The translations under genes were made by a program, and so were the position numbers. The notes beneath the pieces are model-generated. The model saw only the letters and a program-made list of their open reading frames with translations. It was not told the DNA's origin and did no database searches. From Candidatus Gastranaerophilales bacterium (lineage in GTDB: Bacteria; Cyanobacteriota; Vampirovibrionia; Gastranaerophilales; Gastranaerophilaceae), in NCBI GenBank assembly GCA_944325605.1, contig CALVAX010000002.1:1-64000 (forward strand): a DNA stretch of 64,000 nt, given 5' to 3'. Within the stretch, counting starts at the first letter, position 1. The number at the start of each line of letters is the position of its first letter. Positions 14,562 through 30,453 of this stretch are shown piece by piece.

Positions 14562-14961
14562 GGGGACGTTTTGGATTTGACAGGATGTTTCGGTTGGAAC
14601 AGGCTGCGGGTTCGTGCGCTGTTCACGGTTATCAACGAGCAAAACAAATTAAATGCTAACGTAGTTGAAGCAGACTTCAGCAAAGCAGCATATGCAAAAG
14701 CTGCCTAGTTTGCGATTATAGCTCCTTGTAACGCCCAGCTTGCCGGTGTTATGAGGCCATCATGCAAGACGCAGTGCAGTGATTGGCGGTAACTGCATCA
14801 AGACTTCCGTCAGGGGTTTAGAGTTTCCCTAAAATAAAACCACAGGCTGATTTATAAGGTTGTGATTTTCCCCTGAATCAGCCGGAAAATGAAAATCTAC
14901 ACTCGTAGACGTCGGTTACAATCCATTTTGGACGCGGGTTCGACTCCCGCCGTCTCCACCA
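14562..14961 (+). ncRNA. Transfer-messenger RNA (tmRNA)
   Basis: One-piece tmRNA of about 400 nt. The 5' end GGGGACGTTTTGGATTTGAC pairs with the 3' acceptor strand CGTCTCCACCA, and the T-arm GGTTCGACTCCC is intact. The resume frame reads (A)NVVEADFSKAAYAKAA then TAG (about 14654-14709), a typical hydrophobic alanine-ended proteolysis tag. It rescues stalled ribosomes and marks the broken product for proteolysis. An intrinsic terminator follows at 14971. The tandem repeat immediately upstream is unusual. Confidence 0.97.
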
Positions 14962-28097: not shown

Positions 28098-29057
28098 ATG
28101 AAGGTGTTAGAAGTAAATAACTTAAGCCTTGGATTCAAAACGGAACAAGGATTTTGCAGGGCTTTGCACGGGGTAAATTTTTCGCTTGAAGAAGGCAAAA
28201 TGCTTGCGTTGGTCGGGGAAAGCGGATGCGGAAAAACAGTCAGTGCAATGAGTATTTTGAAGCTTTTGCCGAAAAACGCTCAAATTATTGAGGGTCAAAT
28301 TTTATTTAAAAAACAGGATTTACTGGCATTAAGCGAAAAGGAAATGCACAAAATCAGAGGAGCACGTATTGCGCTTATTCCGCAGGATCCGATGACTTCT
28401 TTAAATCCTCTTTATACAATCGGAAATCAGCTTTTAGAGGTTATAAAAATTCATCAGAACTTGAAAGGCAATGAGGCAAAACAAAAGGCGCTTGAGGCAT
28501 TGGAAATGGTTCAAATCCCGTGCGCTAAGGAAAGATTACGCGCTTATCCTCATGAATTTTCGGGCGGAATGAAACAGAGGGCAATTATTGCAATGGCGCT
28601 TGCCTGCAAGGCGGAAATTCTTATTGCGGATGAGCCTACAACGGCGCTTGATGTCACAATTCAGGCGCAGATTATGAAGCTTCTGGCTGAAATAAAACGT
28701 GATTTGGGAACATCAATTTTACTTATAACTCATGATTTGGCATTAGTCGGCGAAAACGCGGATGATATTGCGGTTATGTACGCGGGGCATGTGGTTGAAA
28801 GCGCGCCGGCAAGTGAATTTTTCACAAATACAAATCATCCGTATTCGCTTGCATTGTTGAATTCAATTCCGTCAAGGCGCGGTGCTGTTCTTGAAACAAT
28901 TCAGGGACAACCGCCTTCTATCAGAGAAAACATTACAGGCTGCAGATTTCATCCGAGGTGCAAAAAATGTTTTGACCCTTGCAGTATGACTGTTCCGCCG
29001 GATTTTGTAATCGGGGATAACCATATCAGTGCCTGTTTCTTGAATGCAACAAATTAA
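28098..29057 (+). CDS. Oligopeptide/dipeptide ABC transporter ATP-binding protein (OppD/DppD-like)
   Basis: 319 aa with Walker A GESGCGKT, Q-loop PQDPMTSLNP, signature FSGGMKQR, Walker B ILIADEPTTALD and the switch His (LLITHDL), followed by the oligopeptide-transporter C-terminal region with four cysteines (CRFHPRCKKCFDPC). It powers peptide or nickel import. Unusually, it stands alone with no permease, binding protein or OppF neighbour. TATAAT (28085-28090) lies 7 bases before the ATG and no ribosome site is seen, so the message may be leaderless. Confidence 0.93.
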   Translation: MKVLEVNNLSLGFKTEQGFCRALHGVNFSLEEGKMLALVGESGCGKTVSAMSILKLLPKNAQIIEGQILFKKQDLLALSEKEMHKIRGARIALIPQDPMTSLNPLYTIGNQLLEVIKIHQNLKGNEAKQKALEALEMVQIPCAKERLRAYPHEFSGGMKQRAIIAMALACKAEILIADEPTTALDVTIQAQIMKLLAEIKRDLGTSILLITHDLALVGENADDIAVMYAGHVVESAPASEFFTNTNHPYSLALLNSIPSRRGAVLETIQGQPPSIRENITGCRFHPRCKKCFDPCSMTVPPDFVIGDNHISACFLNATN

Positions 29058-29066
29058 TTCGTATAT

Positions 29067-29278
29067 AAATAAAAGGCGCAACAGTGTTACCCGTCACGCC
29101 TCTTTTAGCGGCTGCAAATTTAAGGCAAGTTCGTGGGGGCTTACCCGCAGCCGTCCGTATCCCGCCGCTTATTTTAGCATATTTGCGCAGTCAGAATACT
29201 TAACTTTCTGCCGCTTCGCAAAGCTATGCACCACGCCCGCATAATCGCAGGAGAACCCGGCTTTCGGATACGAAATTT
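29067..29278 (-). ncRNA. Candidate free-standing structured RNA
   Basis: About 210 nt between the convergent end of the ABC gene and the divergent dehydrogenase gene. On the minus strand it folds into a junction closed by CGTATCC (29266-29272) with GGATACG (29156-29162), continued by GCCG/CGGC. Inside are a CCTGC/GCGGG hairpin and a long GCATA-TTTGCG-CAGAA stem (29177-29229). Outside is a CGGCTGC...GCAGCCG stem (29109-29153) capped by GGTAAG/CTTGCC, and then a terminator-like hairpin at 29071-29106. Two stems need G-U pairs that exist only on the minus strand. A TATAAA (29287-29292) could be its -10. Class unknown. Confidence 0.5.
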
Positions 29279-29445
29279 AACGTAATTTTATATGTGTTAA
29301 TTATTTGTTTTTGTACATTATCAGAATAAACTTTTTTTGTTCTTGTTTCATTGGACGAAAGTGCTAAAATAAAAAATTTTATCTGCCTGTTTGTTTAATT
29401 GTTTTCTCTATTTTATTCCGGAATAATTTATAGAAAGGAGAAATT

Positions 29446-30453
29446 ATGACTGTAGAAATGGTTTTATTTGACTTCAGAGAAGAAGAGCAGGCATTTTTTG
29501 AGAATAACAAGTTTCCTGACTTTAATTTTACTTTCTTTGAATGGAGTTTAACTCCGGAAAGTGTTAGAAAGCTTCCTGAGGACATAAAAAACAAAACGTC
29601 AATAATCAGTGTTTTTACGGATTCTGACGTAAGCGCGGATGTCATAAATGAGTTTAAAAATCTCCGCATAATTTCAACCCGCTCCACATTCTATGATCAT
29701 ATCAGTCAGGGTGCAGCTACAAAAAGAAATATTGCTGTTATTAATGTTGCAAACTACGGAGAAAAATCTGTTGCGCAGTTTACGTTTGCATTGATTCTTG
29801 CGCTTGTGAGAAAATTGCTGCCGGCTTCTGTCGGAAAATTTTTAAGCCGGCAGGAGCTTATCGGGCGTGATATTACAGAGCTTTCCATCGGAATTGCAGG
29901 CACCGGTGCAATAGGTGCTTCTGTTTGTAAAATTGCCCGATTTTTCAACATGAAAATTTACGGATATGATATTAAACAAAAACAAGAACTCGTTGACAAA
30001 TACAATATAGAATATCTTTCACTTAAAGATTTACTTGCAAAATCCGACATCATAACTCTTCACCTGCCTTATACCGGTGAAAATTTCCACATGTTTTCGG
30101 ATTCACAATTCGAGATTATAAAGCAGGGCGCTTATTTTATAAATACTTCATCATCAAAGCTTGTTAATTTAAAAAGTTTATATAACGCCGTTGAATCCGG
30201 AAAAATTGCAGGTGCAGCGCTGGATTTTACGGTCTGTGCCGCCGGAAGTCCTGATTGTTATATGCTCAAAAACCCGTCTGAGATTTGCAGGGAAGAAAAT
30301 AAATACCTGACTCTGTTAAAAAATCAGGATAATGTTATTATCACTCCTCATGTTGCCTACGATACAAAAGAAGCCGTTAATTATATTCTTAAAACAACAA
30401 TAAACAAAATAAAACATGCTATGCAATGCGGAGATGTTTACGGGGTTTATTGA
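29446..30453 (+). CDS. D-isomer-specific 2-hydroxyacid dehydrogenase (D-lactate dehydrogenase-like)
   Basis: 335 aa. The NAD-binding motif GTGAIGASVCKIARFFNMKIYGYD is split around the loop with the terminal aspartate (GTGAIG at about 146-151, then YGYD). Substrate and catalytic residues appear as STRSTFYDH (Arg, about 81) and ITPHVAYDT (His, about 303). It probably reduces pyruvate to D-lactate or a related 2-oxoacid, fitting a fermentative life. The start has GAAAGGAG upstream. It is monocistronic; the 388-bp upstream gap contains the candidate structured RNA. Confidence 0.9.
   Translation: MTVEMVLFDFREEEQAFFENNKFPDFNFTFFEWSLTPESVRKLPEDIKNKTSIISVFTDSDVSADVINEFKNLRIISTRSTFYDHISQGAATKRNIAVINVANYGEKSVAQFTFALILALVRKLLPASVGKFLSRQELIGRDITELSIGIAGTGAIGASVCKIARFFNMKIYGYDIKQKQELVDKYNIEYLSLKDLLAKSDIITLHLPYTGENFHMFSDSQFEIIKQGAYFINTSSSKLVNLKSLYNAVESGKIAGAALDFTVCAAGSPDCYMLKNPSEICREENKYLTLLKNQDNVIITPHVAYDTKEAVNYILKTTINKIKHAMQCGDVYGVY

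Follow-up and report, generated by a model that had tools for sequence, protein, structure and literature searches.

A pseudoknotted RNA of Gastranaerophilales that forms the 3' UTR of a small heat-shock gene and persists where that gene is missing

Between an oligopeptide ABC-transporter ATPase gene (28098-29057) and a D-2-hydroxyacid dehydrogenase gene (29446-30453), both assigned by Pfam and both on the plus strand, a 64,000-nt stretch of a Candidatus Gastranaerophilales genome (here called the window) contains a segment whose minus strand looks like that of a structured RNA, convergent with the former gene and divergent from the latter. An earlier note, made from the letters of this one sequence, took it for a free-standing RNA of unknown class with a possible pseudoknot, and the question raised by the locus is whether such an RNA exists and, if so, what it is and where it came from. 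We know of almost no RNA biology described for the Gastranaerophilales lineage.

Fold, covariation and range of the RNA

For the minus strand of 29067-29278 the folding energy is -80.1 kcal/mol (z -2.87, with 2 of 200 shuffles as good), and the plus strand is weaker (-62.6 kcal/mol, z -1.44). On its own, a z of -2.87 is modest evidence for a structured RNA, and it is the homologues that decide. By DNA similarity, the complete RNA was recovered from 10 other genomes of the same genus and a 5' fragment of it from an eleventh (G011), in which the RNA is ~355 nt long and carries a large insertion in its P1 domain (L012 1189-1543, minus strand). We then built covariance models, the first on 7 same-genus members and the second on 19 diverse members, and ran them through 191 genomes of the family and then 383 of the order; full-length matches to models R1 and R2, together with folding, delimit the RNA here at 212 nt, which begin with the 5' leader of P1 and end in the U-tract of the terminator. 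With terminator false positives taken out and diverged copies 3' of a small heat-shock gene (hsp20A, discussed below) put in, the RNA family comprises 85 genomes in 13 genera, with one copy per genome and lengths of ~150-360 nt. The weak model matches that were excluded (L056, L057, L075-L078 and L080-L083) are ordinary terminators that follow other genes.

Every strong match lies in the window's own taxonomic family within the Gastranaerophilales, and as far as we have searched the RNA is specific to that one family. Some genomes in member genera gave no model match and the RNA itself may at times have been lost, in a genome set that is partly fragmented. Named records with the core sequence are mostly Candidatus Gastranaerophilales; a single Sphingomonas record is probably a chance match, and record FR900472.1 (L152) carries a genuine member of the family under the label Fusobacterium sp. 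CAG:439, which is probably wrong. The core pattern had no match in viral contigs, and a viral origin was set aside.

In an alignment of 90 rows (the 85 members and 5 spurious ones), 95.9% of cells are standard pairs and all 35 modelled pairs show at least one double change, counts that lean towards the structure to which this alignment was fitted. The covariation score of 0.712, compared with 0.074-0.109 in six registers with slid partners, agrees with them, as does a structure-blind MAFFT alignment of 11 same-genus sequences, in which compensatory pairs appear in P1b, P2, P4 and the terminator. The alignment of homologues that the earlier note had proposed as a check thus comes out strongly in favour of its structured RNA. 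Its choice of the minus strand, argued from G-U pairs, holds as well, because G-U cells (226) far outnumber A-C cells (32) across the 85 homologues.

Covariation between the aligned sequences establishes a fold in which a closed P1 domain holds P2 and an optional P3, with P4 docking back by a pseudoknot or kissing pair. All of its elements lie on the minus strand. The 5' strand of P1a (CGUAUCC, 29266-29272) pairs with GGAUACG (29156-29162), and all seven pairs covary in alignment A11; that of P1b (GCCG, 29258-29261) pairs with CGGC (29164-29167) in a nearly invariant core, and the 3' strands of P1 together occupy 29156-29167. The P2 hairpin (CCUGCGAUUAUGCGGG, 29236-29251) covaries at 5/5 pairs. 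The P3 arm (29177-29229) has the base GCAUA/UAUGC and a variable apex, and it is dispensable, being missing from genera g8, g17, g20 and g35. P4 (29109-29153) is a hairpin whose seven lower pairs all covary and whose upper stem shows double changes in the MAFFT alignment, and the terminator hairpin (29074-29101), which with its U-rich tail spans 29067-29101, covaries at 12/12 pairs. Among the 85 homologues, near-invariant positions cluster in and around P1b and P2 (AAAGCCGAAU, GAU and AAA..AGCGGC). We also note that in genus g7 (L043, L048, L089 and others) a hairpin inside the P1 domain, GCAGRUGAYAGUGAUAAYCUGC, is almost invariant and is possibly an extra docking site, and that several g8 and g11 genomes (L084, L085, L086, L087) have stretches rich in palindromes, with repeats of CATGG/CCATG, just 3' of the RNA terminator.

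The possible pseudoknot of the earlier note joins CGUGG (29231-29235), immediately after P2, to the CCACG of the P4 loop (29132-29136), and both positions proved correct. Because CGUGG/CCACG hardly varies within this genus, the pairing was tested across genera, where the two halves covary: they read CGUGC/GCACG in g35 and g27, CGUAC/GUACG in g17, g20 and g10, CAUGC/GCAUG in g8 and g38, and UGUACA/UGUACA in one g10 genome. Of 48 members from 8 genera, 47 carry within the 12 nt after P2 a stretch of 5 nt or more that perfectly complements the member's own P4, compared with a mean of 11 and a maximum of 20 of 48 in 1000 trials with P4 swapped between genera, and a mean of 8 of 48 with P4 shuffled; the pairing is real. 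In genus g11 it is the P3 loop that instead makes an independent kissing contact, with the covarying loop pairs AGUCGGC/GCCGAUU, ACUGGC/GCCAGU, AUCGGU/ACCGAU and UGCCGGU/ACCGGUA. The kissing contact is lost in two g22 genomes with a nearly loopless P4, and unclear in g7 and g14.

A small heat-shock gene beside the RNA, present or missing

As the earlier note had held, the RNA is not a leader: it has its own terminator, its downstream neighbour in this genome converges on it, the genes downstream differ between genera (the ABC ATPase gene adjoins it in some genera and not in all), and it does not sit upstream of a same-strand gene, as a riboswitch or other 5' leader controlling that gene would. 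What lies on its other side is more informative. Of the 85 genomes, 55 have the RNA as the 3' UTR of hsp20A, a same-strand gene for a type A Hsp20/alpha-crystallin small heat-shock protein (PF00011, 158-186 aa); the median distance between its stop codon and the start of the model is 1 nt, and the divergent dehydrogenase gene lies beyond. In the other 30 genomes, which fall in seven genera and include this one, hsp20A is missing and the RNA is kept. The description as free-standing is accordingly right for this genome and wrong for most relatives, and the free-standing arrangement here looks like a derived state.

The distance from dehydrogenase to RNA is 168 nt here, compared with 615-758 nt in genomes that bear hsp20A, and in 29 of the 30 genomes without hsp20A the dehydrogenase start is 124-205 nt from the RNA. 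From this spacing we place the junction at the missing Shine-Dalgarno sequence and open frame (158-186 aa in relatives) at 29279-29316 on the minus strand. Next to it, at 29317-29352 (minus strand), block conservation identifies the promoter-like sequence AATGAAA-N-TTTATTCTGATAAT that lies 5' of hsp20A in relatives; in the form AATGAAA-N-TTTATTCT-AATG, the block stands before hsp20A or, where the gene is missing, directly before the RNA. The Shine-Dalgarno sequence is gone or decayed in genomes without hsp20A, and the promoter-like block is retained. The strict pattern of this block occurs in this genome, and in this genus, at the RNA locus alone, and the block upstream of type B hsp20 differs; a promoter shared by a regulon was therefore rejected. 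Type B hsp20 genes (L107 = G000:C12:16692-17135; L106, L108-L112) have a conserved upstream block of their own, TTGTTAATTTTTGGTTAA ... AATAATATAAGTGT.

On a tree of the dehydrogenase protein, the state with or without hsp20A changes 15 times, and all of these changes are forced by well-supported branches. Loss is the sensible direction, because type A hsp20 is found in the same slot and at the same spacing in 13/13 genera and also in genera without the RNA. Judged from these sequence comparisons, about 15 lineages, among them the one studied here, seem to have deleted hsp20A and kept the promoter and the RNA. Pairing is undiminished after the loss (96.2% of cells without hsp20A and 96.3% with it), and a six-genome clade that includes the window and lacks hsp20A has acquired later compensated changes in P1, such as UCC/GGA to CAA/UUG. 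The RNA is thus no decaying relic, and with equal pairing in the two states we discarded the idea of a fossil.

Ten genomes were checked for Hsp20 genes, and all had some Hsp20, the six without type A carrying type B elsewhere; in G009 and G013, which also lack type A, no strong match to Hsp20 was found, and G126 carries both types. After hsp20A of genera g34, g29 and g24 (L122, L124, L125) there are other short, structured-looking 3' UTRs, which are possibly distant or analogous RNAs.

Identity and function of the RNA

Rfam 15 gave no family above its gathering score at the RNA locus or in nine diverse members, in line with the earlier note, which had recognised no known family; relaxing the search to E up to 10 yielded chance-level matches to preQ1-II, snoR64 and mir-541. 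The only Rfam match within the window is an ordinary, full-length tmRNA gene (14562-14961, plus strand). A small protein was also rejected, there being no conserved open frame and the longest ATG frames ranging from 0 to 59 aa. As in type II 3'-UTR-derived sRNAs, the RNA shares an mRNA 3' end and terminator, in 55 of the 85 genomes, and our best reading is that it belongs to a previously uncatalogued family of 3'-UTR-derived RNA. The earlier note's view of a structured, pseudoknotted RNA of unknown class has thus been borne out; what it missed is where the RNA comes from, namely the retained 3' UTR of a small heat-shock gene that has apparently been deleted.

We found no paper that describes the RNA; a survey of structured RNAs from human microbiomes (PMC8040213) mentions neither the lineage nor hsp20 in its main text, and no description of a 3'-UTR RNA that outlives its gene turned up in the literature searched, which covers the field in part. 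Other RNAs are linked with small heat-shock genes. In Deinococcus radiodurans, the heat-inducible ncRNA DnrH is reported to pair within the coding region of Hsp20 (PMC6798082); compared by description alone, it shares the link to Hsp20, whereas the RNA here is part of the hsp20 transcript and persists without the gene. ROSE-like thermometers (PMC3669281) and IbpA binding to its own mRNA (PMC10474464) involve elements in the 5' UTR of hsp20 or ibpA that control translation. These are likewise structured RNAs on small heat-shock mRNAs, but the RNA described here follows the stop codon and persists in genomes where the open frame is gone.

Could the RNA be a classical 3'-UTR-derived sRNA, pairing with target mRNAs through the C/U-rich stretch before P2 or through the P4 loop, as the enterobacterial CpxQ and SdhX do? 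Its site at an mRNA 3' end, Rho-independent terminator and start near the stop codon fit known 3'-UTR sRNAs (PMC9438474), among them CpxQ, which derives from the stress gene cpxP and, like the RNA here, ends at the mRNA terminator with conservation reaching beyond it; copies in g1 moreover have CUCC-rich segments, complementary to Shine-Dalgarno sequences, ahead of P2 and within its 5' strand. We nevertheless regard this as rather unlikely: across genera we see no conserved unpaired seed of 8 nt or more, the loops show mutual covariation instead, and pairing to the start region of type B hsp20, the one candidate target examined, was not found, the match being no better than with shuffled sequences in almost every genome tested. 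CpxQ-type sRNAs also differ from this RNA of ~150-360 nt in that it has a closed domain of several helices and a pseudoknot that covaries, shows no universal seed, and persists with its promoter in the many lineages where the coding gene is missing. The lack of an Hfq match in 21 genomes says little, as the same search also misses the Hfq of Synechococcus elongatus, a cyanobacterium.

Position also invites readings in which the RNA serves a neighbour. The dehydrogenase gene, the one gene that stays beside the RNA, lies upstream in nearly every member, and G004, the sole same-genus genome without the RNA, lacks the dehydrogenase too, apparently with the whole locus gone; yet the RNA is transcribed away from that gene without overlapping its 5' end, and a shared divergent promoter region could by itself hold the pair together, so that a regulator of the dehydrogenase seems quite improbable. 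A cis element of the hsp20A mRNA (a stabiliser, an exonuclease block or a 3' regulator) that survives as a fossil after gene loss would account for the 55 genomes in which the RNA adjoins the stop codon of hsp20A; we consider it very improbable, given that promoter, fold and terminator all persist in the 30 genomes that lack hsp20A, with the pairing and the new compensatory changes described above. A divergent copy of 6S RNA, RNase P RNA or SRP RNA, to which the size and the single copy per genome might point, has next to no probability. A candidate 6S RNA and the RNase P, SRP and tmRNA RNAs sit elsewhere in the genome, and the only match to RF00013 is at G000:C8:1012-1184 (L016), covering the full model at 36 bits, below the cut-off of 46 bits. 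Although it resembles 6S and other free-standing RNAs in being single-copy, structured and, in this genome, free-standing, the RNA differs from 6S in architecture and in its narrow lineage range; an ordinary RNA such as 6S, the outcome that the earlier note had named as counting against it, did not emerge.

The explanation that we favour, and think probable, is that the RNA family arose as the 3' UTR of hsp20A, works independently of that protein and acts through its shape. The comparative sequence evidence establishes a conserved, strand-specific RNA with a tertiary contact, selected independently of hsp20A, and since hsp20A appears to have been deleted while promoter and RNA were kept, the RNA very likely has a function of its own. 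Where hsp20A is present, a single transcript would comprise the open frame, then the RNA from the stop codon, then the terminator, and the RNA would presumably be released by cleavage near the stop codon or act on the mRNA tail. In genomes that have lost hsp20A, this one among them, the gene's old promoter would drive the RNA alone, which would then be expressed in whatever condition induces hsp20A. The docking strands vary freely as long as they pair, and there is no long, unpaired, invariant stretch, which makes action by shape the most likely mode; function thus probably depends on the fold rather than on a conserved antisense seed. That the RNA binds a protein or other partner by its shape, under the conditions in which hsp20A is produced, is a prediction to which we give about an even chance. 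We advance more tentatively, as possible and somewhat short of even, the view that the RNA is the main selected product, a stress-induced pseudoknotted scaffold for a protein or small ligand from which the open frame has repeatedly been discarded; were this true, the family would be a natural, repeated series from bacterial mRNA to noncoding RNA gene.

RNAs in 3' UTRs are often suspected of functions apart from their own mRNAs, and clean evolutionary experiments on the point are rare. At this locus about 15 separate lineages lack the coding gene that in relatives stands between this promoter and this RNA, and they still maintain the fold. Whether a 3'-UTR RNA acts independently, and how mRNAs give rise to noncoding RNA genes, can thereby be tested directly by comparing related gut bacteria, and an uncatalogued, strongly covarying RNA family is added for the Gastranaerophilales.
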